A stretch of DNA of 64,000 nucleotides from Thraustochytrium sp. TN22. Taxonomy: Eukaryota; Sar; Bigyra; Thraustochytrida; Thraustochytriidae. How positions within the stretch are numbered: the stretch's first letter is position 1; every line of letters begins with the position of its first letter. This document shows positions 2,451 through 29,248 of this stretch, one piece after another. The stretch lies in contig JABLUY010000148.1 in the NCBI GenBank assembly GCA_013306675.1, forward strand, positions 1-64,000, in the 5' to 3' direction. The translations under genes were made by a program, and so were the position numbers. Under the pieces are notes generated by a model, which was not told the DNA's origin, did no database searches, and saw only the letters and a list, made by a program, of their open reading frames with translations.

Positions 2451-5020
2451 GCGCTGAAGCTCTGGCACGGGCGCTGGAAACGAACGCGAGCAGCTCTATC
2501 CAACATCTGCACCTCTCATCCGTAGTGGAGGTGTTCGCAGCCCGTATCGGCGACCGTCTCAAGACGGTTCAAGCTGACGTCGAAGACTTCAGCGCGGACG
2601 CGCTTGCGGCGCTCGAAAGCGACAAGAAGGTTCGCTGGGGACGCGCCAAGGCCATGGTGGTGGGCCAAGGCGGCTCGGGCAAGTCGTCGACGATCCGTAC
2701 GCTGCTGGACCAGACCGTGATTCTCGAGCACGAGTCGACGATCGGCATCGAGCTCAAGCATACGCGAGCGCAAGACTGGGTGGAGCAGAGCCGACTTCAC
2801 ACCTCGGTACTCAGCGAACTCCTTGCCAAGCACAAGTACCGGCCTCGGAGTGCGAGTGTCGAACATTCGCAGAGCGCGGCTTCAGCGCGAGCGCCTGCGC
2901 AGCCTCTCCCCGCACCTCGCCCAGTTGTCGCCGCGCGGCACGAGGTTGCCAAGGCGTATAACGCTCAAATGCGTGTGCACGTTCAAGAGCAGGGCGTCAA
3001 GGTGGACGAGGAGGTGAGCTTTACCATCTGGGACTATGGCGGGCAGGAGGTTTTCTACGCGCTGCACCACCTCTTCCTGACGCGCTATGGCGTGTGCGCG
3101 CTGGTCTTTGACATGCGCGAGGTGCTGGGCAAAGAAACTTTCCAGGCCGACCTCGATCCAGACGCATACGCAGAGCTCGCTTCGCGCGAAGACGCGTTGG
3201 CGACGCTCCGCTTCTGGCTGGACTCCTTTCGCCTGCACGCGCCAGATGTCACCGTCGTGCTGGTCGGCACGTATCTCGACCAGGTCCATGACGAGGCGCA
3301 GCACAGGCAGATTCAAAAGTGCCTGGAGAGGTCGGCGCTGATTGGCCTTGACGGCCGACCTTCTATCGCTCGCAACAATCCGGAGCGGCTCGACTTCTTC
3401 CCGCTCGACAACACTCTCCGTGGGGATGCCGACGGGCGCGTGGCTCGACTGCGAGCCGTCCTGACGGCGGCGGTCGCGAGCGAGGACTTCATATCGCAAG
3501 AGGTGCCGCTGCGCTGGTCGCTCTGCTTCGACAAGCTGCTCGGAACGAAGAGGAGCTACCTGTCCTTTGATGAGGTCCTCAGGGTGGCGCGCCAGGAGTG
3601 CGGTCTCTGGAAAACGGACGTCCTCAAGATGCTCGAGTACATGCACGAGCTGGGGGTACTGATGCACCTGCGCGGCTCCGAGACGCTGTGCCAGTTGGTC
3701 GTGCTACAGCCACAGTGGCTGCTGGACAAGCTCTCGCGCGTCGTCTGCGAGCCTCGCCACATGGAAACGCACAAGAAGCAGCTCAAGTACAACGAGGACA
3801 TGCCAGGGGAACTGGGCGGCGCGCTTGCGGCCTGGGAGGATCGCGGCGTGGTGAGCCGTGCCCTGCTGGCCTGGCTTTGGCGCGCTGACCAGGTCGACTA
3901 CCTGTCGGAGCTGATGCAGGAAATGCTGTTGGCGAGTCCTAGCCCTTGGATCGGCGTCCGAAACGAGAACGCGGATACGATCGACGAACCGGGCGCTTTG
4001 CTGGTACCAAGCCTGCTCAGACCTGCCGACAAGGAGACGCGCAGCAAGGGCCTCGAGGCGGTTGCCGGCGGCTCGCTGGCGTACATCAACTTTAGAATCC
4101 TGCCCACGGGTGTCTTCCAGCGTTTCGTGACGCAGCTTGTGCAAGGCTTTGGCCGGCAGGTGCACGTCCTGGAGGTTACTGCTGACACTGTCCAAATGAT
4201 CTTTCATGAGGTGGACACCTTTCTGGAGGTGGCAAGAAGCGAGCCTCGGCGTGTGGTATTGCGTTTCGCGCCTGGGGCCTCGCAGAGTCTGGTCGACCGC
4301 ATCGCGCTGATCAAAGAGCAACTCAGAGGCATTGACACCTCCTTTATGAAGGGCGAGCTGCGGCCGCGGCTCTTTTTGAGCTCGGATGGCTCCATGGAGC
4401 CTCGCTCTTGTGTCTTCGCGGACACCCTCGCCACGACAGGCAACGATGACACGGTCCGCTCGCTGGCCGGCACGGCACTGCCCCTTGCGGCATTCAACGA
4501 GGTTGTGCCTGGCCAGCTGCAGGCGGTACAGCTGCGCGACGCAGGCACGGACAGCGCCAGGACGTTTGATGTCTTCCTCTCGCACGAGTGGGGCTCTGAC
4601 AACGCCAAGCATCGCATCGTGGTCAATGTTGCCGCGGCTTTAAAGGTCACGCACGGGATCCGCTGCTGGCTCGACGAGTCGGAGGTAGGGCCAGGCTGCG
4701 TAGCGCGCGCCATGGCGCGGGGCATCGACTGTTCCAAGGCGAGCGTCATCTTCGTGACGCGCCAGTACATGGACAAGGTGAACACGCCTGAAGATCGGGA
4801 CGACAACTGCCGCGCTGAGTTCAACTACATCCGCAAGCAGCACAAGCTAGCACGCATGCTTCCATGCGTGTTGGACACGGACATGGCCAGCACCGGTGCG
4901 TGGAAGGGCGTCTTCGGCTTCAGCCTGGACGGCGACCAGCTCTTTTGCAAGATGACCGAGGGCGGCAGCGAGTCCGAGATCGCGAGGCTCGCTGCTCGCA
5001 TCCGCAAGGTGATCGAATGA
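232..5020 (+). CDS. LRR-Roc-COR-TIR (Roco family) protein, 5' partial, nine visible exons
   Basis: This is a Roco-family GTPase with N-terminal leucine-rich repeats and a C-terminal TIR domain, probably a signalling or sensing protein. Exons are 232-318, 467-553, 830-916, 1117-1203, 1393-1479, 1680-1766, 1950-2036, 2228-2314 and a long terminal exon 2422-5020. Each short exon is 87 bases and encodes one 29-residue ribonuclease-inhibitor-type LRR (pattern N.IG..GA.ALARALESG.CTLTTL). All introns are GT-AG and phase 2. In the last exon a ninth LRR is followed by a Roc domain with P-loop GQGGSGKSS (2663-2689), switch II DYGGQE (3032-3049) and a VGTYLD guanine-specificity-like motif near 3260. A COR-like region (about 3490-4100) and a TIR domain beginning FDVFLSHEW (about 4564-5000) follow. 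No kinase domain follows COR. The TGA at 5018 ends the gene. The start is outside the window. Confidence 0.85.
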
Positions 5021-5326: not shown

Positions 5327-7927
5327 TCATCCAGAGGCGTCCATCTCGCAGAGGCAGTCATGAAGGAGGCTTTGTGCCGCCTTGGTGTCCGGATGGTCGG
5401 GGCCGAAGACGTGAAGAAAGGCGTCGGCGGCCTGGCGGAAGACGTCCTTGGCGTCGTCGAGACTGCCCTGGGCAAAGTGCACGGAGCCAATGTTGAGGAG
5501 CATGGAGGCGACCTTGGGGTGCTGCGAGCCGAGGAGGTCGGTGCCGAGGCGCAGGGCCTCCTTGAAGAGCTCGAGCGCCTCGTCGTAGCGGTGCTCGTCG
5601 GCGTGCACGAGGGCGATGCTGTTGAGCGTTGTGACGACGCTGCGGGAGGTGGCACCGCGCGCCTCGCGGTAAATATGAAGCGCCTGCGTGTAGAGGTCGA
5701 TGGCGCGGTCGGGGGCGCCCTGAAGGTGGTGCACGCTGGCCATGTCAGTGAGTAGATTGGCGACGACGACGTGCTGCGAGCCGTAGAGCTCGGTGGCGAG
5801 CCCGAGGGCCTCGTCGTAGTAGCGCAGGGCCTCGTCGTAGCGGCCGAGCGCCTTGGTGACGAGGGCAACGTGGGCGAGGGTGTCGGCAATCTTGCGGTTG
5901 CGGCCGCCGAGGGCGTCCTTTTGCAAGCTCAGGGCCTCGCAGAAGAGGTCGAGCGCCGTGTCGTAGCGGCCGAGAGAGTCGTAGACGAGCGCGATGTTGC
6001 TGAGCGTGTCGGCGACGCTGGGGTGCTTGACGCCGAGGACGTCGCGCTGGATCTCGAGCGCCTCCTCGAAGTGGATGAGCGCCTCGTCGAAGAGACCCTG
6101 GGAGGACTGGAGGAGGGCAAGGCTGTTGAGCGAGGCGGCGACTTCCGGGTGGCGATTCCCCAGCGACTCGCGCAGCACGAGCACGGCGTCCTCGAAAAGC
6201 TGGCGCGCCTCGTCGAAGCGGCCCTGCGTGGCGTAGAGGCCGGCGACGAGCTTCATGACGCGCGCGAGCTCGGGCTCCATGGGGCCAAGCGTCTCGCGGC
6301 CGATCTCGAGCGCCTCCTCGGCGTCGCGGAGCGCCTCCTCGTGGCGCGCCTGGCTCTCGAGCAGCTGTGCGGTTCGCGCCAGCATGATGCCGAGCTGCCT
6401 GCGCTTGCGCGCGTTGACGCGCGCGGAGGGCGCGGCGAAGGCGGAGAGGCGCTTGCTGAGCCTGCGGCCCAGGGTCGCTGGCAGCGGCATGTGTGGGGCG
6501 GCGAGCTCCGAGGGGGCGGCGGCACCGCTACTGTTCCTGCCGCTGCCGCCGTGGTCTCTGGCGCGCGCGATGAGGTCGCGTGCCAACTGCGTGACCCAGG
6601 CGCGCGCCTGGCGCGCCACGACGGCGCCGACAACGGCCTCGCCGTCGGAGCCGCGGCGCGCGGCCTGGCGCATGGCGGCGCGGATGGTGGCCTCGTCGTG
6701 GTCGGAGCGGCAGAGCGCCGCGGCGACGTCGACGGGCGCGCGGAGCACAGTGACGACGTCGGCCGGGTTCTCGACGAGCTGCTTGCTGAAGACGGCCTCC
6801 TGGCCGGGCACGAGCGCGGCGTGCATGGAGGCGCCCTGCTGCGCGAGCCCGTAGACCTCCCAGAGGCACCAGGTACGCGTGAGGACGGCGGGCGCGTCCC
6901 AGCGGTCGATGACCACGAGGCGCTCTTCGAAGCGGGCCAGGTCAGCGTGCGCGCCGGTGTCCACGTAGTCCTCCCAGGCCTCGTACTGCTTGTCGTTGTC
7001 GCCGCGCGCGGCGAGGTCGGCGCAGAAGATGTCGATCCAGGCAAAGTGCGCGGGCCCATCGGCGCCGGCGCCGAAGAAGTAGCGCTCGAGCGCACCGACC
7101 AGGGCCTGGAAGCGTGTGTCGCGCGCGTGGACGACGGCGACGCCCTCGAAGATGTCGCCGACGTCCTCCTCGTCCGGGATGGCGCGCAGAAAGACCTCGG
7201 GCCCGCGCATCTCGCGTGTGGTGGGCGCCAGCACGTGCTCTGCGACGTCGCGCGTGGTCCAGTCCTCGCGGCGCTTGAGCCGGGCGTCCTGCTTCTCGAC
7301 AAAGTCCACCGTGACGCCGCTGCGCGTGGCGAGGCCCTTGCAGCGGCCGTCCTTGGACTTGCCCAGCAGCTTGATGGTGTCGCCGGCCCCGACGTCGTCT
7401 GCGATGTCGCGCGTCGCCACGTAGAGCACGGTCTCGGCGGCGCGCGACCCGTGGAGCACCTGGTCGCGCAGCTCGCGCAGGAACCTCAGGCTCACGCCGC
7501 GGCGCTTGACGGCGCCGTCCGCTGCATCCTCCTCGGCCGCGGCTCGGATGGCGGCGACCTCTGCCGAGACCTGCCTCGCCTTGCGTTCCTTCTCCTTCTC
7601 CTTGTCCTTGTCCTTGTCCTTCTTCCTCCTGCCGCCCTTGAACTTGCGGCGCCTGGCGCTGGCGCCCGCGCTGGCGCCCGCCGCCTGCGAGTCTGCTGCG
7701 TCCTCGTTCGCGCGCGAGTCCTGGCTGTCCTGCGCGAGCGCCTCGCTGTCCTCTCGCTCGAGCAGGAGCGGGTCGCGCTGCGAGTCCTCCTCCTCCTCCT
7801 CCTCCTCCTCCTCCAGTTCCGCCAGCCGTGCCTCCTCCTCCTCCGCCTCCGCGAGCGCGCCGCCGCCCTCGCCGAGCCCCCGCCGCCGGAACCTGTTGCC
7901 CACGCTGCGCCGCGCCAGGGCGCGCAT
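5327..7927 (-). CDS. Kinesin-light-chain-like TPR protein with WCLWE-type N-terminal domain
   Basis: A protein of about 866 residues. Residues about 30-120 are charged low complexity: a run of Glu near residue 40 and a KDKDKEKEKE stretch near 105. Residues about 150-480 form a domain whose landmarks are WIDIFC (about 292) and a TRTWCLWEVYG segment (about 353). I know this combination from protist KLC-like proteins but cannot assign it a reaction. From about 510 to 850 there are about eight tetratricopeptide repeats of 42 residues with the KLC pattern (YDEALELF.EAL.L...LG..HP.VA..L.NIA.VH), which points to protein-protein scaffolding. The frame stays open far upstream to 8989. I chose the ATG at 7927 because everything upstream is Arg/Ala/Gly-rich and crosses a (CAGG)n array. 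An ATG at 8470 is the alternative. The stop is TGA. Confidence 0.8.
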   Translation of the reverse strand: MRALARRSVGNRFRRRGLGEGGGALAEAEEEEARLAELEEEEEEEEEDSQRDPLLLEREDSEALAQDSQDSRANEDAADSQAAGASAGASARRRKFKGGRRKKDKDKDKEKEKERKARQVSAEVAAIRAAAEEDAADGAVKRRGVSLRFLRELRDQVLHGSRAAETVLYVATRDIADDVGAGDTIKLLGKSKDGRCKGLATRSGVTVDFVEKQDARLKRREDWTTRDVAEHVLAPTTREMRGPEVFLRAIPDEEDVGDIFEGVAVVHARDTRFQALVGALERYFFGAGADGPAHFAWIDIFCADLAARGDNDKQYEAWEDYVDTGAHADLARFEERLVVIDRWDAPAVLTRTWCLWEVYGLAQQGASMHAALVPGQEAVFSKQLVENPADVVTVLRAPVDVAAALCRSDHDEATIRAAMRQAARRGSDGEAVVGAVVARQARAWVTQLARDLIARARDHGGSGRNSSGAAAPSELAAPHMPLPATLGRRLSKRLSAFAAPSARVNARKRRQLGIMLARTAQLLESQARHEEALRDAEEALEIGRETLGPMEPELARVMKLVAGLYATQGRFDEARQLFEDAVLVLRESLGNRHPEVAASLNSLALLQSSQGLFDEALIHFEEALEIQRDVLGVKHPSVADTLSNIALVYDSLGRYDTALDLFCEALSLQKDALGGRNRKIADTLAHVALVTKALGRYDEALRYYDEALGLATELYGSQHVVVANLLTDMASVHHLQGAPDRAIDLYTQALHIYREARGATSRSVVTTLNSIALVHADEHRYDEALELFKEALRLGTDLLGSQHPKVASMLLNIGSVHFAQGSLDDAKDVFRQAADAFLHVFGPDHPDTKAAQSLLHDCLCEMDASG

Positions 7928-8279
7928 CCCGCTCCGAGTCGCGCGCCGCTGCCAGGCCTGCCTCGCCGCCGCTCTGCGCGTGGCTCTGCGGTGCGGCGCC
8001 GCCCCCGCCGCCGCCCGGGCGCGCGCGGGCGCCGCGGCGCGCTCTGCCGCCGCGGGGCGCCGCTGCTTTCCGCCTTTGCGGCCTCTCTCCGCCTTGGCGC
8101 CTTGCCTCCGAGTCGCCGGGCTTGCCGCGCTCGCCGCCTCAGGCTCCCGCCTCGGCTCGCGCGCGCGTGCAGTGCAGGGAGAGGCCCCGCCGGCAGCGCG
8201 GCGCGGCGCGCGTGACAGCGGCTGCGGCGCCGCTCGGCCCGGCAGCGCGGGCGGCGCCGGCGTGACGGAGCTGCCGCCG

Positions 8280-8326
<47 letters not shown>

Positions 8327-9215
8327 ATCGCAGCGGTCACGGCGCGCGCCGCGGCGGCGAGCAGCCGGGTCGCCACTGGCAGGCGGCAAGCCCGAGCGTG
8401 CAAGGTCTGGTAGCCCAGAGGGCGAGGTGTGGTGGTGCTGCCAGGTAGTTAGGCCCGGTTGCGATGACATCGGTGTCTGCCAGTGGTTGCTCAGGAGGCC
8501 GAGAGGGCGCGAGAGCCTGCGAGAGGGTGGAGTCGGGTGGAGTCGGGTGCTCTCTCGCCAGCCAAGCTGCCAGTCAGGCTGCGGCAAACAGGAGGAAGCT
8601 CGCGGCCAGACCGAGCTGAGCGGCGCGCGCGCAGCCTCAGCTCGCTGACAGTGAGTTCGTCCGCGGTCACGGCTCGGGTTGCGCGCGGCGCCGCTGCGGC
8701 TGCGGCGCTGCTCGCTCGGGCCAAGAGGTGGCGACAGCGGCTTGGTCCCTAGGGTGACTTGTAATAAAAGGAAGGCGGCCGAAGCGCACGAGGCGCACGA
8801 CGACGGCACGAGGCGGGCGAGGGAGGGAGCCTGAGGACGAGCAGCCCGGCGGGCGCGCACCAGAACGCACGACAGCGCTCGCACGACAGCGCTCGCACGA
8901 CGCGAGCTCAGTTCGTCGGGCGCGCACCCGTCGCGCTCGTCGCGCTCGTGAGTCGTGAGGCCTCGCGTGCCTGGACGGGTGTGTGGCACTGTGTGCTACC
9001 TGGCAAGGCTCACGCTCGGTCCGAGTCTCGGCAACCGTCATTTCTCGCTCAACTTGATGAAAGTCGACAACAGAAAACAAAACATGTGTGTGCTTTTTAT
9101 CGTGCCAGGCCCGTGGCACCCCTCGGAACAACATTGATCATCTTTGCTTCGGCGGCGCTTCGGCTTTGCCCTTTGCCTCCACTCCACCTCGCCCCCCCCA
9201 CCCCGGTCGCCCGGC
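7928..9215. promoter_or_regulatory. 5' flank of the TPR gene and 3' flank of the next gene
   Basis: About 1.3 kb without a supportable gene. It holds a (CCTG)n array (8281-8326), a CACTGGCAGGCGGC motif (8374-8387) and an inverted relative at about 8478. The only AT-rich element, TAATAAAAGG at about 8761-8770, reads CCTTTTATTA on the minus strand and could be a TATA-like element or a processing signal. From about 8990 to 9215 is the 3' flank of the oxidoreductase that ends at 9216. The long Arg/Ala-rich open frames here follow from base composition. Confidence 0.5.
8281..8326. repeat. (CCTG)n tetranucleotide array
   Basis: About eleven perfect TGCC/CCTG units, about 355 bases upstream of the chosen start of the TPR gene. 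It is one of a family of similar arrays in 5' flanks across this window. Confidence 0.95.
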
Positions 9216-14736: not shown

Positions 14737-17700
14737 TCATAGGCAGCGCGAGAGGTTGGCTTTCATCTGCTCAAAGGAGCGCGGGATGTTGTGCAGATCG
14801 CAGCCGGAAGAGACCCAATGGCGCAGGAGCTCGTCAAGGCTCCAAATGGTGCGGCCGGGCAACAAACGCACGGGATCTTGGATCGAGTTGCCAAGGAGGG
14901 ACTGCCAGGAGAGAGAGATGCGCTTGAGGCTGTTGCGCGGCAGCGAGCCAAAGGTGAGCGTGGCGGCCTGCTCGAGGCGGTCCTGGCGCTGCCACTCGAC
15001 CCAGTCGAGGAGCCAGGCTTCGAAGTGCTCGTCCGTGAGCTCGAGCGCAGCGCGGCGCGCCTCCTCAATCTCGTCGTCGCTCACATGTACGTAGCTGGGG
15101 AAGAGCATGGCCCGCGCGGAGACCGGAAGGTCAAGTTCCTCGCGCAGAGAAATCTCAAAGCGCAGGTAGACGCAGACGTCGTCCACGAAGGTGTGCGTCT
15201 GCAAAAAGGCCTCCACCTTCTCGTGCACCGCCTCGAGGCGCATGATGCGGCGGCCGAGCGCGCGCAGCTCGTCGCGCTTGCCACGCGCGCGCGAGATGCT
15301 GACCAGCTGCTGCATCTGGTTCAGCGCCCAGACTGGCTTATCGCCGCAGGCGTCCGCGCTGTCGGCCATGTGCACGCAGACCATCTCGCGCACGTCGGCA
15401 TCGTCCGTGGTGACGATCAGCTCAAAGATCTCCAGCACGCGCTCCACGAGGCCGGGCCGCATCGTGCTGCTGGCAAACTCCTTGGCCATGGACAGCTTGT
15501 GCAAAAACTGCTGCGTGCCATAGTGGTAGCTGGGCGGGATGGCGGCGATGACAACGGCGGCCTCGAGCGACGACGAGGAGTCCAACTCAAGCGCGAGCTC
15601 GTTGACCCAGTACGCCACGGCGTCCTCGAAGCTGAGCTGCTCCTCCTCCTCCTCCTCTTCGTCCTCCTCCTCGCCGTCCCACCCAAAGGCGACGTTTGGA
15701 AACGCTTCATCGTCATCGTCAGCGGCTCGAGAGGTCTGGCCAGCATTGGGCCGCAAAAAGTGCGACAGGTCGAAGCGCAACATGGGTAGCTGCAGGTCGC
15801 GCAGACGCGCCACCTCGTCCTCGTTTGCCTGCACGCCAGAGGACACCAGGTGCACGCGGTGCTGCACGCCAGGGTACATGGACTGATCCTGGCCCCACGT
15901 GAACACAATCGCCGGCAGCGTGCGTACGTTGGTGCACTCGGTCAAATCCAGAAGTCTGGTCTCGAAGCGCTCCGGGAGCGCCGTGAGCGCGGTGCAGCCT
16001 TGCAGGACGAGCTTGCGGCCCACGTAGAGGTCCTCGGGCAGTGCCGTCAGCGCAGTGCAGTGCGAGAGAATGAGCGCCTTCACGGTTTCGTTGTACGGAG
16101 GGACTTCGCTCAGCATCTCACAGCCCGTGCAGTCGACCGTGTCGGCGTGGAGCTCCTCAGGCAGAGCGCGCAAGCTGACGCAAAACTTGGCGTTGATCGT
16201 CTTGACAACGAACAGCCCCTCGGGCAGATGCGTGAGCGCGGCGCAGCCGAAGATGTCCAGGTCGTTCAGAGTGGCGCCGGGTGCCAGCGGCAGCGCGCGC
16301 AGCGCATTGCACTGGCGGAACGAGAGCTGCACGCCGATATCCACCTCGACGGTGTCGGCGCCGTAGGTCTCCAGCGCGCCACATGCCTCCACGGTCGAGC
16401 GGGGCGGCAGGGCAGCCAGCCCAATGCGCTCCAGGCGCGCGCAGCGCGAGACGGTGAGCGACTGTGCCACGACGACCCCCTCGGCGAGCGCCACGAGGCT
16501 CGCGCAGTCGCGCACCTCCAGCACGTCGACGGAGAGCGACGGCAGTGTTTCGAGCTCGGCGCAGTGAGTGACTTGTAGAAGTCTCGCCACGGCGAGGTCA
16601 CTGGGCAGCGTGCGCAAGCGCGGGCAGCCATCCAGAACGAGCCTATCGACGGTGAGACCGGCGTCGCTGCCGACGGGCGAGCCCAGCAGCTCGAACTGCG
16701 GACAGCGGTCCAAGACCACCTCAACGCACGAGGTCAGACGCACCTCGCTGAGCGCGTTGCAGCTCTTGATGGTGACTCTTTGGAGCGTGTTCTGGGTCTC
16801 ACCCGCCTCATCCACCATGGACGACCCATACAGCGCGAGGCTTTCAAGGGCGTTGCAGCCCACGACTTGCGCAGACTCGACGACCTCGAGCTTGTCCGTC
16901 GGGGGCAGCGCGCGGAGCTGGTCGCAGCGGTCCACGATGAGCGAGCGGACGCGGGCGGCGCATGCGAGGCTCAAGTCGAGCAGGTTCGGCAGACCGCGCA
17001 GCTCGAGCGAGTCGATGCTGGTCATGTGGTCGCGCTCGTCTCCTACGAGACGCAGCGTCTCGAGCGAATCGCAGGCCGTGAACACGATCGCCCCCGCCTT
17101 TCCAACGGGCAGCGTGAGCTCGACGACGCTGAGCGCAAGGTCCGGCGCGTCGAGCAGTGTGCCCATCCCAAAGCCCGGCGTGCTGTTCAACGTAAAGGAG
17201 CCGCCCTCGGCGAACTTCAGATCGCCCAAGCCCAGGTTGGCAGTAGCACCCTGAAACGTGGCGACCCGCACGTGCGTTGCCACGTGCTGGAGCCGCGGAC
17301 AGTGCGTGGCGAGGAGCGTGCCGCAGCTCTTGAGGTCCTCCACGCTCTCCAGCATCGGGCACATGACGAGCATGAGGTACAGGCAGGTTGCGCCTGAGAA
17401 ACTGACGGCGTGCAGCGCTTTTAGGTCGTGCAGCTCCACATTGCACGCCTCGTCGTCACCGGGAGAGGCGACCACATACTCCAGTGCCGCGCAACTCTCC
17501 ACGCGCAGGTGCGAGGTGACGACCATGCCTTCTTCGGGCTGCAGGTGCGCAAGGGCGTCGCAACGGCCGATCTGAACATCGCGAAAGACCCCGTGCACAG
17601 AGAGGTCGGCGAGCAGCGGCAGGTCAAAGAGGGTGAGTGCAGCGGAGGAGGAGCCCTGGTCGTCGTCGCAGGGCGCGGCCGTAATGTGCGCCGAGACGAC

Positions 17701-18825
17701 TTCCGGGCAGTCGTGCACGGAGATGGCGCCGTGCACGCTGGCGATGCGCACCTCGCGCAACGCGGGCAGGCTGTTGAGCAGCATGCTCTGCACATCGCCG
17801 AGCGTGAGGCTGGTCAGCTGGCGCAGCGAGTCGCACCGCGGACCGACGACCATCTCGCCTTCGGCGATCCAGTAGCCGATGCGTTTCAGGTCCACGAGCT
17901 GCAGCATCTCGTCGTGCTGTACGTTGAGGATGCCGCCGCAGCCCGTCTCGTCGCCCAGGAACTGCAGGCCGCTGCAGTCCTCGAGCAAGAGGTCGCGTCC
18001 CACGTCAAGGTTTGGCGGCAGCCGCTCGAGGGCCGCGCACGTGTATAGCTCTAAGTCGCCACCGACGTGGCGCAGCGCGCCGAGGCTCGACAGGCTGGCG
18101 TTGTCGCTCAGGTCCAGGCTGCCCTCCACGGACGCCAGCTTGTCGCCCAGCGACTGCAGCGCCGCGCAGTCGCTCAGGTTCACACTGCACGGCAGCGCCT
18201 CCACGGGCGGGAAGTCGACCAGCGCCGACCCGCTCAGGTCCACGCCCAGCGCGCGCGTCAGCCAGGCGGCGACCTCGGGCGCGTCGTCCCAACTGCACAC
18301 CGTGCCGCCCAGGTCCAGGCCGCCTAGGCATCGCACGGCACGCAGGCCCGTCTCCTTGACGCGCTCCTCCAGCTTGCTTCGCACCTCTTCCACGTTGTCC
18401 ACGTCCAGCTGGGGTCCCTCCACCGCGTCCAGCCGCTCGCGCAGGTACGTCAACTGCGCGCTCTGGCTCCGCCGCTCGTCGTCCTTGGCCTCCTTGAGCA
18501 CGCGCACCACTTGGTCCACGGCCTCGTACGCGGCTCCCAGCGCTTGCGGGTCCCCGTGGCTTTCGGCCTCCTCGGCCCACGCGCGCAGCGCCTCCTCCGC
18601 TCTTTCCGAGAGCGCTGTGCTGCTCGTACGCCGCGATGCGCGGCGCGAGCTGCGCTGCGATGCGCGGCGCGAGCTGCGCTGCGACGCGGGTCTCGGCGCG
18701 GACGACGAGGAACCGTCGCCCTCCGCTGAGTCGCCCCCCTCCCCCTCCGCGTCTCCCTCGCGCGGCCGTCGCCGCCGGGCGCCGAGGCCGCCCGGCCTGC
18801 ACAGCAGCGCGGCAAGCCGCACCAT
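14737..18825 (-). CDS. LRR protein with C-terminal NEL (IpaH/SspH-type) E3 ubiquitin ligase domain
   Basis: 1362 residues from the ATG at 18825; the frame stays open to 19011 through low complexity. Residues 1-110 are Ser/Arg-rich with a repeated RRASQRSS. Residues about 160-1010 are a long series of irregular leucine-rich repeats of about 20-24 residues with the pattern C.AL..LP..L.V...L.L..C. An acidic linker (about 1040-1062) leads to residues about 1063-1290. These match the NEL domain of bacterial IpaH, SspH and SlrP effectors in order: FEDAVAYW, an FLHKLS segment, ADSADACGD with the catalytic-type C-x-D at C1160-G-D1162 (Cys codon 15346-15348), LGRRIMRLEAV, FVDDVCVYLRFEISL, and AWLLDWVEWQ. 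NEL domains transfer ubiquitin through that cysteine. The LRR-then-NEL order is also the bacterial one. There is no signal peptide, so it is probably cytosolic. The frame has no internal break or intron and the composition matches the neighbours, so a transfer, if any, was old. Confidence 0.85.
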   Translation of the reverse strand: MVRLAALLCRPGGLGARRRRPREGDAEGEGGDSAEGDGSSSSAPRPASQRSSRRASQRSSRRASRRTSSTALSERAEEALRAWAEEAESHGDPQALGAAYEAVDQVVRVLKEAKDDERRSQSAQLTYLRERLDAVEGPQLDVDNVEEVRSKLEERVKETGLRAVRCLGGLDLGGTVCSWDDAPEVAAWLTRALGVDLSGSALVDFPPVEALPCSVNLSDCAALQSLGDKLASVEGSLDLSDNASLSSLGALRHVGGDLELYTCAALERLPPNLDVGRDLLLEDCSGLQFLGDETGCGGILNVQHDEMLQLVDLKRIGYWIAEGEMVVGPRCDSLRQLTSLTLGDVQSMLLNSLPALREVRIASVHGAISVHDCPEVVSAHITAAPCDDDQGSSSAALTLFDLPLLADLSVHGVFRDVQIGRCDALAHLQPEEGMVVTSHLRVESCAALEYVVASPGDDEACNVELHDLKALHAVSFSGATCLYLMLVMCPMLESVEDLKSCGTLLATHCPRLQHVATHVRVATFQGATANLGLGDLKFAEGGSFTLNSTPGFGMGTLLDAPDLALSVVELTLPVGKAGAIVFTACDSLETLRLVGDERDHMTSIDSLELRGLPNLLDLSLACAARVRSLIVDRCDQLRALPPTDKLEVVESAQVVGCNALESLALYGSSMVDEAGETQNTLQRVTIKSCNALSEVRLTSCVEVVLDRCPQFELLGSPVGSDAGLTVDRLVLDGCPRLRTLPSDLAVARLLQVTHCAELETLPSLSVDVLEVRDCASLVALAEGVVVAQSLTVSRCARLERIGLAALPPRSTVEACGALETYGADTVEVDIGVQLSFRQCNALRALPLAPGATLNDLDIFGCAALTHLPEGLFVVKTINAKFCVSLRALPEELHADTVDCTGCEMLSEVPPYNETVKALILSHCTALTALPEDLYVGRKLVLQGCTALTALPERFETRLLDLTECTNVRTLPAIVFTWGQDQSMYPGVQHRVHLVSSGVQANEDEVARLRDLQLPMLRFDLSHFLRPNAGQTSRAADDDDEAFPNVAFGWDGEEEDEEEEEEEQLSFEDAVAYWVNELALELDSSSSLEAAVVIAAIPPSYHYGTQQFLHKLSMAKEFASSTMRPGLVERVLEIFELIVTTDDADVREMVCVHMADSADACGDKPVWALNQMQQLVSISRARGKRDELRALGRRIMRLEAVHEKVEAFLQTHTFVDDVCVYLRFEISLREELDLPVSARAMLFPSYVHVSDDEIEEARRAALELTDEHFEAWLLDWVEWQRQDRLEQAATLTFGSLPRNSLKRISLSWQSLLGNSIQDPVRLLPGRTIWSLDELLRHWVSSGCDLHNIPRSFEQMKANLSRCL

Positions 18826-19361
18826 CGGTGACGTCTGCCCTGGCTCACGCGGTCCTTTATCGCGGCCGCCGCGGCCGCCGCCGTGCGCCGCCGCGCGCAG
18901 CCCGCGCTCTGCCGCCGCGATCGCGCTTTGCCGCGCTTTGCTGCCCTCGCTCGTTCGCTCCCTGGCTCCCTCCCTCTCTCTGACCTCTCTCTCCTTCTGC
19001 ACGTGCGGCACGCGCCGGGCCGTAAAAAGAGGACAGGCGTGTCAGAGTCAGGCGGAGAGGGAGGGACTCGGAGGGGCCCGGGCTACGCGCTGGGCTTCTC
19101 GCCGCCTGCGCAACCACCGCTGCGGTTCTCGTCGCCGCCCGCCTGCGCAACCAACGCCAACCAACCACTCGGCGCGAGTTCACATTTGCAGAGGGCACAT
19201 CTCCGACGTGGGTTTTTATGCCAGAGCGGCTTGGCTCGACTCGGAGCGTCGTTTGCGCGACTCGGAGCCCGTTCGCTCGTCGCGAGTTGTCTTGCCAAAG
19301 ACAACTCGCGACGGAAGAAAGCAACGCAACGAAAAAATCAACCATCGTGCTCAGGCTGTGA
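18826..19361. promoter_or_regulatory. 5' flank of the LRR-NEL gene and 3' flank of the enoyl-CoA reductase gene
   Basis: 536 bases. It has a GC-rich GCGGCCGCC-repeat stretch at 18861-18900 and a CTCTCTGACCTCTCTCT pyrimidine stretch (about 18970-19000). Two inverted near copies of CAACTCGCGA / TCGCGAGTTGTC lie at about 19278-19310, and TTGGCTCGACTCGGAG / GACTCGGAG repeats at 19230-19268. No gene. Confidence 0.5.
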
Positions 19362-26678: not shown

Positions 26679-28751
26679 TCAGGCGCAGCAGAACTTCTGG
26701 ATGCTGGCCGTGAGGCAAATACCAAAAGCCTGGACCGGGGAAAGAGGCCACTGGAGATCGAGGGTGTAGACCTCGGGCCCAGTTTCGTGGACCTTGCCAA
26801 ACTGCAAAGTGATCTCGCTCGAAGCGTCTGGTCCGGGCAGCACGAGGCCAGGCGCGGCCTCGCCCTGCAGACAGAGCTGGAAGTTCTTGTTGGAGGGCAG
26901 GGTGACGCGACCGGCGAAGTCGAGCGAGTAGGCCTGGATGGAGTCGAGCCAGTAGGGCTGCTTGTTGGTGCCATACACGAGGTCGTCGCAGTGCGCGATG
27001 GCGGGCTGGCCGCGACGCAGCAGCTGACGCATGGTTTGGCCCGAGCGCACGGGCCGGTAGACCTTGGTGGCCCAAGGGCGCTCGTCGTAGTCGTCGTCGT
27101 CGTCGTCGTCGTTGTCGTCGCCGCCGCCGTCGTCAACATCATCCATGGCGGCCTCGTCGCCCGCGGCGGAGGCGCGACGGACGGAAAAGTCGTCCGGATC
27201 GGCGCCGGGGCTTAGCAGGAGGTCGGAGGAGGAGGCCCAAGCCGTGGCGCAGTCGCCGTCGCCAGCGTCGGCGATGCTGCCGCAGCCACGCGCGCGCGGG
27301 CCAGGGAGAGCAGCCTCGCCGACCTTGGGCACGCAAACCTGCATGCGGCGCGGGCCGACGCTGCGGCCGACGCGGTTCTGCGTATAGCGCACTGAGGCAA
27401 GCTCGAGGAAGCCCGTGGAGCCGGCAGCGGAGCGGCGGCGCGAGGGAGACGCGGGCGGCGCAGAGGCGTCGGCCGGACCGGGCTGCGTGAAAAAGGGCGC
27501 GAGCACGGTGTGCTCGAGGCCGGAGAAGGAGCTCTTGACGCAGCCGACGAAGTTGGGGCCCTTGCGGTCGAAGTCGCGCGCCGTGGGGTCGAGACTAATA
27601 TCTACAATGGAGTTGAAGCAGGCGCCCTGCTTGAGCGAGCGCTTGCGCGCCACCATGAGGAGGACGTCGCCGTCCAAGGGCGAGTCGGCGGAGGGCAGCT
27701 CGCCGTGCGGGTAGCGCACGCGCGGCGGCGCCTGCAGGTACATCTCGTAGCGCGTGAAGCGGCCCAGGAGGGCCGAGTCCTCGCGCACTGCACGGATGTA
27801 GCAGCGCACCATGCCGGCGGCGCGCGGTACCGGCCGCGACACGAAGGACTTGCGGTAGGGAAAGCGGCCCAGCGAGGCGGCGTGGAGAGGGTCTGGCGGC
27901 GTGTAGTCCATGTCGGTCAGCGGGCCGCGGCACAGCGGGCACGCCGAGGGCGCCTGCGTGAAGGGCCGCTTGGTCTCCTTCCACTCAAAGATGCACTTGG
28001 CGTGCACGGGCGCATCGTTGCACGCGCCGGAGCAGGGGATGCGCACCGGCGGCCGCTTCGCGGAGAAGCTGCCGTAGCAGATGATACAGACTTGCGGCTC
28101 GGCCTCGCACGTCTGCGCCTGCGCCTGCATCTGCGTCTGCGGCCCATCCTCGAGCTGCTGCTGCGGAGGCTTGGGCACAAGCGGCGGCAGCGGCGGCGTG
28201 CCCGAGGGCGCTGGTCTGCTGCTGGTGCTGCTGCTGGTGCAGGTTGAGGCCTTGCAGTCAGCGTCCGTGTCGGCCGAGGGCGCGGCGGGCGCAGGCCGGC
28301 GCTTGCCCCTGGCGCCGGGCGCCGCGGCCACAGCCGCGATCTGGCCCGTCACGGGCGCCCGGGGCGGCAGAGGCGGCGGCGCCGGTAAGGTACTGCTGCT
28401 GGCGCTGCTGCTGCTGCTGCTGCTGCTGCCGGCAAAGGCGTCCCAGCCGCCGCGGCCTGTGACGGCCGCCGCGGCCGCGGCGAAGCTTGCGTTGTCCCAG
28501 TCAAGCGGCAGGCTGAGGCTGCGCGAGCGCTTCACCACGCGCACGCCGCCCAAGCCGGACAGCGCGCCCTTGCCAGCCTGAATCAGCCGGCCATTGGCGG
28601 CGCGCGGCTCGTTCTCCACGTCGCTGCTGCTCGCCCGCGCACGTCTATGCGCCCGCGGCGGCAACGGCGGCGGCGCCTGGCCTAGCGGCTGCGCCCCCAT
28701 CACGGAGTAGTGCTGCGGCTGCTGCCGCTGCTGCTGCTGCTGCTGCATCAT
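26679..28751 (-). CDS. RING-type zinc finger plus Tubby domain protein, copy A
   Basis: 690 residues from the ATG at 28751 (MMQQQQQQ). Residues 1-215 are low complexity: Gln, Ala, a serine run, and PPLPPR motifs that could bind SH3 domains. Residues 222-274 form a RING-like zinc site: C222-x2-C225, a CSGAC pair, VHAKC (H and C), and CPLC ending at C274, resembling the C4HC3 (RING-CH) spacing. From about 295 to the end is a Tubby domain. RYTQNRVGRSVGPRR is followed by an acidic insertion (polyAsp near 580), then FAGRVTLPSNKNFQL, ITLQFGKV, YTLDLQWPLSPVQAFGI, and a C-terminus like that of Tubby proteins. Tubby domains bind phosphoinositides, and RING domains recruit E2 enzymes. A membrane-tethered E3 ligase is therefore plausible but unproven. 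It is paralogous to the gene at 33301. Confidence 0.85.
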   Translation of the reverse strand: MMQQQQQQRQQPQHYSVMGAQPLGQAPPPLPPRAHRRARASSSDVENEPRAANGRLIQAGKGALSGLGGVRVVKRSRSLSLPLDWDNASFAAAAAAVTGRGGWDAFAGSSSSSSSSASSSTLPAPPPLPPRAPVTGQIAAVAAAPGARGKRRPAPAAPSADTDADCKASTCTSSSTSSRPAPSGTPPLPPLVPKPPQQQLEDGPQTQMQAQAQTCEAEPQVCIICYGSFSAKRPPVRIPCSGACNDAPVHAKCIFEWKETKRPFTQAPSACPLCRGPLTDMDYTPPDPLHAASLGRFPYRKSFVSRPVPRAAGMVRCYIRAVREDSALLGRFTRYEMYLQAPPRVRYPHGELPSADSPLDGDVLLMVARKRSLKQGACFNSIVDISLDPTARDFDRKGPNFVGCVKSSFSGLEHTVLAPFFTQPGPADASAPPASPSRRRSAAGSTGFLELASVRYTQNRVGRSVGPRRMQVCVPKVGEAALPGPRARGCGSIADAGDGDCATAWASSSDLLLSPGADPDDFSVRRASAAGDEAAMDDVDDGGGDDNDDDDDDDYDERPWATKVYRPVRSGQTMRQLLRRGQPAIAHCDDLVYGTNKQPYWLDSIQAYSLDFAGRVTLPSNKNFQLCLQGEAAPGLVLPGPDASSEITLQFGKVHETGPEVYTLDLQWPLSPVQAFGICLTASIQKFCCA

Positions 28752-29248
28752 GTTGGCAGTGCCAGCGGGCGGACGGCCTCCCGACGGCACCCGCTGCCTG
28801 CGCTGGCGCTCGGCGCCGAGGCCTGCGCCGGCGCCGCTCCCCGCGAGCACGCCTGCCCGCGCCGTGCGCCCAGACGCCGCGCGCGGCCGCCGCCGCCGCA
28901 CGACCGCCGCGCCGCGCCGCGCCCGCGCCGGTCTGACGGTCTGTGCGTCTCTGTCTCAGACTGTCTGTCTGTCTGTCTCTCTCTCTCTCTGCCCGCCCGC
29001 TCTGCGCCTGCGCACGCGGGCTCGCGAGGTCCCGGTTCCGCCGGCCTGCACGCCGCGCTTGCCGCGCTCGCGCGCTGGCCTGGCGCTGCCTGCCTGGCGC
29101 TGCCTGCCTGCCTGCCCGCGACGAGCCGCGCGCGGCGGCCGACGCGCCCCGGGGGAATCGAAGGGAATGCGATGCCTGGAGCGGCGACCGGTCGCCTCCC
29201 CTTGCGGGCCCGTGCGCTTGCCTGCTTTTGTTTTGTTTCGCGGGCGCT

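Follow-up and report, generated by a model that had tools for sequence, protein, structure and literature searches.

The stretch of DNA analysed here (the window, 64,000 nucleotides) covers positions 1 to 64,000 of contig JABLUY010000148.1 from the protist Thraustochytrium sp. TN22 (assembly GCA_013306675.1). On its minus strand lies a gene encoding leucine-rich repeats (LRR) followed by a NEL domain, the ubiquitin ligase (E3) domain of bacterial effectors such as IpaH, SspH and SlrP. The frame is stop-free throughout 14737-19011 and its first ATG, at 18825, opens a protein of 1362 residues (Table 1). A first-pass annotation of the letters alone had described an open gene without internal stop, LRR placed before NEL and a series of NEL motifs, points that are borne out, and a missing signal peptide. 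The N-terminal part (N-part) contains 29 [CND]xxLxx[LVI] sites, all ahead of the NEL, with a spacing of 19-23 residues in 18 of 28 intervals, and the underlying DNA shows some repeats at 63-66 nt. The quoted motifs are found at their residues: DAVAYW at 1068, FLHKLS at 1107, the cysteine of C1160-G-D1162, VDDVCVYL at 1214 and WLLDWVEW at 1271. In a crude hydropathy scan the highest 19-residue mean, 1.75, falls within the LRR region and no signal-like start is seen; the start is charged or basic, as in many family members, start codons being unproven. On the other hand, WLLDW-W, previously taken as the end of the protein, is followed by about 70 more residues that form a conserved U-box-like tail.

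Table 1. Features of the LRR-NEL gene (window coordinates)
Feature	Position	Strand	Basis
LRR-NEL-U-box-like protein, 1362 aa, single frame, intron not required	14737..18825	-	open frame and Pfam NEL
LRR array, unit of ~21 residues, roughly CxxLxxLPxxLxVxxxLxLxx	15900..18270 (limits approximate, by eye)	-	site spacing and DNA repeats
NEL catalytic domain with leading DAVAYW stretch (residues 1068-1281)	14983..15624	-	Pfam stretch 1106-1281 and motif positions
C1160, catalytic cysteine (thioester site by homology)	15346..15348	-	alignment
D1162, Asp of the CxD motif	15340..15342	-	D in 88/88 alignment rows
D1215, equivalent of IpaH9.8 Asp397	15181..15183	-	alignment position
Putative C-terminal U-box-like domain (residues ~1305-1362)	14740..14913	-	family conservation and profile comparisons

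The NEL assignment is firm. The Pfam NEL profile, proposed earlier as a check, matches the window protein at 83.8 bits against a cut-off of 24 (E 1.5e-23). In a phmmer search of PDB the protein retrieves SlrP (3.7e-11), 11 more NEL chains including IpaH and SspH, and one chance match at 0.6, while for a profile of the 25-member family described below all matches at E<=1 are NEL chains, 12 in number (best 1.1e-24). NCBIfam models of SlrP, IpaH and SspH2 also match, all far under their equivalog cut-offs, together with XopL-type LRRs. In the alignment used for the tree, the catalytic Cys is conserved in 25/25 protist and 63/63 bacterial rows and the CxD Asp in every row. The second Asp is present in 25/25 protist and 58/63 bacterial rows, the other five bacterial rows having E. 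The IpaH Asp aligned to D1215 stands 60 residues past the catalytic Cys as counted in the alignments, which matches the step from 337 to 397 in IpaH9.8, whose catalytic Cys we take to be at position 337. The Cys and both Asp are thus kept in the protist, and that a NEL ligase domain is located in a eukaryotic genome appears to us practically certain. These three residues are functionally important in NEL enzymes (PMC9320238). The motif reads CxDK in 24 of the 25 protist copies, the exception being C332 (CGDRVTW), which is closer to bacteria.

The gene is real and looks intact, as first noted, but it does not stand alone. Across the 453 contigs of the genome (37.9 Mb) there are at least 25 matches to NEL, spread over 17 contigs and each above the Pfam cut-off; the protein search and the Pfam model each give 25, a count to be taken as a lower bound, and none of these frames has an internal stop. 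No NEL was found in 14 control genomes. Some copies are arranged in tandem, in groups of four (C335), three (C158) and four (C453). Because the fetched stretch or the contig edge cuts the 5' end, N-parts are incomplete for 5 of the 25 frames, and the variation of N-part length among some copies arises partly from such cuts. In the Pfam tally all 25 proteins carry NEL, two SPRY (C20, C139), one a SAM pair (C288) and one Arm (C348), and the LRR models match a few; NACHT, NB-ARC, RING and B-box are absent from this tally, in which five proteins are cut at the 5' end. Three of the 25 frames begin, from the first ATG, with a hydrophobic stretch (C335_5683, C335_9557, C158_11163), so export of some members is possible, and the 19-residue hydropathy peak reaches 2.34 across the family (C427). 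Separately, the proteins C53, C139, C348, C120 and C332 have alike short N-termini, in which leucines are followed by Cys/Trp and then by arginines (e.g. LLCRP), which might serve as a signal for targeting or for attachment of a lipid.

The tail beyond the NEL is conserved across the protist family, and three of the four members of a chlamydial group (L157, L167, L180) share it. We considered that it might be an unknown domain, as searches with protist sequences only were empty; once the three chlamydial tails were added, a U-box emerged. The mixed profile retrieves Prp19 first from PDB (E 1.9e-4 and 3.3e-4), with 13 matches to E 10 including PUB12 and UBE4B, and the profile of the three chlamydial tails alone retrieves the LubX U-box (E 3.9e-6). 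Compared by hhalign with seven U-boxes of the same genome, the protist tails give a probability of 40% (P 3e-4), rising to 81% after addition of the chlamydial tails; column shuffling in three comparisons gave 0/150 shuffles at the observed score in each. Protist and chlamydial tails align to each other with a probability of 87% (P 4.3e-6). Against the Pfam U-box, L180 scores 17.1 bits (E 0.0063) for a cut-off of 21.4, and L157 and L167 do not match. The tail is therefore very probably U-box-like and divergent in the protist, as judged from profile comparisons, and being below the Pfam cut-off it is no U-box member by that criterion.

Where are the closest bacterial relatives? With tblastn, plasmids yield bacterial NELs with E down to 4e-10 for the window NEL (among the matches listed) and 1e-13 for C332, and a mixed-alignment search gave 79 loci (best 80 of 86 kept), mainly from Bradyrhizobium and Pseudomonas. 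PF14496 is present in 51/232 Chlamydiota genomes and in 9/398 Pseudomonadota genomes, including the centre genome already known to carry NEL. Three chlamydial proteins, L157, L167 and L180, align to the protist ones over both NEL and tail. A profile of the protist NEL core only, run on the frames of 106 bacterial loci (a set without L243), ranks these three first at 109, 106 and 97 bits, the next being at 87. With a profile of protists plus these three, they score 283-306 bits by construction, L243 (G154) 167 and the next 110. Close to L180, within a few kb, are bacterial genes for release factor 3 and heme o synthase, and to L167 a cytochrome bd subunit; L243 neighbours a GltP-type symporter, and the single neighbour tested for L157 gave no match.

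The tree was built from 88 rows (25 protist, 63 bacterial) and 202 columns, excluding the tail, and is unrooted. It answers the question raised earlier of whether protist copies form a clade: all 25 NELs group together with a bootstrap of 100 and a Shimodaira-Hasegawa-like approximate likelihood ratio test (SH-aLRT) value of 99, on a branch of length 0.90. C332 branches first among them (other 24: 92/88), and the protists join L157, L167, L180 and L243 in a clade supported at 99/96. It is highly probable that the protist family goes back to one founding gene that was domesticated, and its nearest kin are probably this small chlamydial group. A recent transfer from a bacterium represented in GTDB was considered and discarded, since protist-type patterns collected 59 stretches there without any relative, one devoid of these motifs being missed by such a search; in IMG/VR the same patterns gave 28 stretches and no relative, with the same limit. 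Among the chlamydial genomes some are rich in NEL (12 matches in G056, 10 in G159, 9 in G001), and at L244 4068-5577 (G154) a NEL-U-box-like gene appears divided over two reading frames. In Pseudomonas sp. RIT623 (G002, L119) six NEL matches lie in frames of 1405-1878 aa, compared with 733 in Cedecea davisae (G005) and 587 in Serratia sp. (G006).

The two parts of the protist proteins evolve at different rates. In the five closest pairs of copies, NELs are 92-98% identical and N-parts 67-91%. The ratio of nonsynonymous to synonymous substitution rates (dN/dS) is 0.10-0.37 for NEL plus tail and 0.38-1.0 for the N-part in 7/7 close pairs, hand-picked from tandem or close copies out of 300 possible. 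A conserved NEL combined with a faster N-part resembles what is seen in families of sensors whose output domain stays constant.

In the known NEL enzymes, the LRR binds the substrate and masks the NEL; binding frees the Cys, and ubiquitin passes from the ubiquitin-conjugating enzyme (E2) to the Cys and then to the target (PMC9320238). We propose, with a probability of roughly 0.7, that the protist has in this family its own LRR-guided, thioester-forming E3 ligases, which would go back to a single gene common to it and chlamydial bacteria. The long LRR array would bind a ligand or target and, by homology with the bacterial enzymes, would probably keep the NEL inactive until bound. A charged E2 would then hand its ubiquitin to Cys1160 of the NEL, where a thioester forms, and from there the ubiquitin would go to the target; docking of the E2 would probably be assisted by the U-box-like tail. 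One founding NEL-U-box gene, common with chlamydial bacteria, would have multiplied and altered its recognition parts, and the likeliest role of the family would be to recognize varied, fast-changing molecules. Such a role in internal surveillance or defence, judged from how the copies evolve, seems to us plausible at somewhat less than even odds. More tentative still, and rather unlikely, is the idea that the protist possesses intracellular sensors forming an immune-like repertoire that diversifies, with a NEL of effector type plus a U-box as output; we saw this double E3 otherwise only in chlamydial genomes. If true, the same gene family would have branched into a weapon for injection on one side and a surveillance system of the host on the other.

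Several observations weigh against these proposals. For the tail, none of the 25 protist sequences matches the Pfam U-box, the protist-only profile found no U-box in PDB, and L243 has no tail as judged by eye. On bacterial frames the protist-only tail profile gave L157 first at E 0.0021, a chance frame of L190 at 0.021 and L180 at 0.033, and missed L167. The hhalign P values are moreover not blind, because a U-box had been suspected by eye beforehand, the PDB searches on the contrary having scanned everything. In the approximately unbiased (AU) test, a single clade of the 31 chlamydial rows is not rejected (4.8 log-likelihood units worse, p-AU 0.386); the support for a sister relation therefore comes from the unconstrained tree, from the NEL profile of protists only and from the tail. 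The seven dN/dS pairs share members and one N-part (C158_11163) was cut in the fetch, and the higher N-part values may reflect relaxed constraint. Finally, the presence of LRR alone is no proof of an immune role.

Among other explanations, housekeeping ligases come first: the proteins would serve protein turnover or development and have no part in surveillance, and the change of the N-part would denote loose constraint. Eukaryotic LRR, SPRY and Arm ligases are often so employed, and dN/dS over the whole N-part never exceeds 1; the tandem groups, as well as the lower identity of N-parts than of NELs in the closest pairs, rather resemble recognition families. We hold this alternative to be possible, if doubtful. 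As for the direction of transfer, it is not fixed by the tree because the latter is unrooted, and the NEL-U-box gene could be of eukaryotic origin and taken by chlamydial bacteria from a host. The U-box is generally held to be eukaryotic in origin, and among the 106 bacterial loci scanned the mixed tail model has good matches only to its own three, all adjoining the protists in the tree. Yet chlamydial NELs are many and diverse, as opposed to one protist clade on a long branch, and this reverse course seems unlikely to us. Export of the NEL proteins onto prey, hosts or competitors would parallel the bacterial NELs (PMC9320238), and the hydrophobic starts and hydropathy peaks mentioned above go in the same direction; the charged or basic starts of the window protein and many others, not signal-like in the crude scan, speak against it and make it improbable. 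Decoys, that is inactive NELs baiting or sensing bacterial NEL effectors or their targets, have a parallel in the copies of pathogen targets carried by some host families, but with all three catalytic residues intact in 25/25 copies and purifying selection on the NEL in 7/7 pairs this is very improbable.

Bacterial contamination, in which symbiont DNA co-assembled with that of the protist would carry the NEL genes, is the weakest explanation and may be dismissed. The first-pass annotation, which placed the gene among eukaryotic genes sharing its composition, had named a bacterial or assembly artefact as what would overturn it; this is very unlikely for 25 matches spread over 17 contigs. The window contig carries SDR, Tub, RhoGEF, JmjC/JmjN, VWA and Roc-COR-TIR genes, and NEL genes are found on contigs as long as 432 kb. 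GC content at third codon positions (GC3) is 0.78-0.955 in the 25 NEL frames and 0.77-0.88 in six window genes, the slice of a seventh, out of frame, being left out, whereas the stretches of the chlamydial relatives have a GC of 0.42-0.45. The GTDB search mentioned above yielded no relative, and the SPRY, SAM and Arm fusions fit a eukaryote. Ten frames flanking other NEL genes lend this rejection partial support: three have a Pfam match, an AAA ATPase (C170), a papain-type protease (C348) and an SMC-like ATPase (C332), all of families that also occur outside eukaryotes. The other seven have none, which speaks for contamination.

Compared with bacterial LRR-NEL effectors (IpaH, SspH, SlrP, NopM), the protist proteins have in common the NEL profile, CxD and the second Asp, the LRR-then-NEL order, LP-containing repeats of ~20-22 residues and a similar lead-in ahead of the NEL core. 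They differ by their eukaryotic genome, longer LRR, U-box-like tail, multigene family and lack of a secretion context, and, in 24 of 25 copies, by CxDK where the aligned bacteria have CEDRV. A type III effector is the product of a bacterium that secretes it; since the window gene lies on a eukaryotic contig, it is not classed as one. Chlamydial L180, L157 and L167 share NEL and tail and are the nearest by tree and by the protist-only NEL profile, but their tails are closer to a standard U-box, their GC is lower, and Pfam finds no LRR in L180. LubX and Prp19 are the top PDB matches of the tail profiles, whereas the protist tail is divergent, under the Pfam cut-off and placed after another E3 domain. 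With sensors of NLR or TRIM type the family shares a conserved output, a variable LRR or SPRY recognition part and tandem copies; its output, however, is NEL, and the Pfam tally is devoid of NACHT, NB-ARC, RING and B-box.

A review of the NEL family describes the domain as existing only in bacteria and as injected into host cells. At least 25 intact-looking eukaryotic copies break this rule, and add to a eukaryote's own toolkit an E3 class beside RING, HECT and RBR. The protist family also offers a natural comparison for a NEL working without injection. As NEL and U-box-like tail tie it to chlamydial bacteria, the origin of effector ligases becomes a testable question. Our searches of open-licence PMC papers showed no eukaryotic NEL family, NEL-U-box protein or LRR-NEL-U-box, although InterPro or UniProt may list such proteins. 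A published statement that NLRs of green algae contain NEL (PMC7145615) was set aside: in the accessible part of that article the link is made via SSF52075, described as LRR motifs, and so gives no NEL catalytic domain. A Giardia inventory (PMC7029713) names PF14496 in its list of search profiles, as far as the available portion goes, and PMC4209131, which surveys Chlamydiae for families related to ubiquitin, has no word starting with NEL in the part consulted.

Other genes of the window and genome deserve mention. At 2525-5020 (+), some 10 kb away from the NEL gene, Pfam recognizes in one frame the domains Roc (2.1e-15), COR-A (1.6e-11) and TIR (8.7e-10); this is possibly another sensor-type gene. 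A long frame at 5327-8989 (-) ends, as seen by eye, in many TPR-like units. At 26679-28901 (-) a Tub domain is preceded by a RING finger barely under the cut-off (24.7 vs 27.3 bits), an unusual pairing. A single frame of 1719 aa contains two FabA domains, which we take to be the layout of the thraustochytrid polyunsaturated fatty acid (PUFA) synthase.

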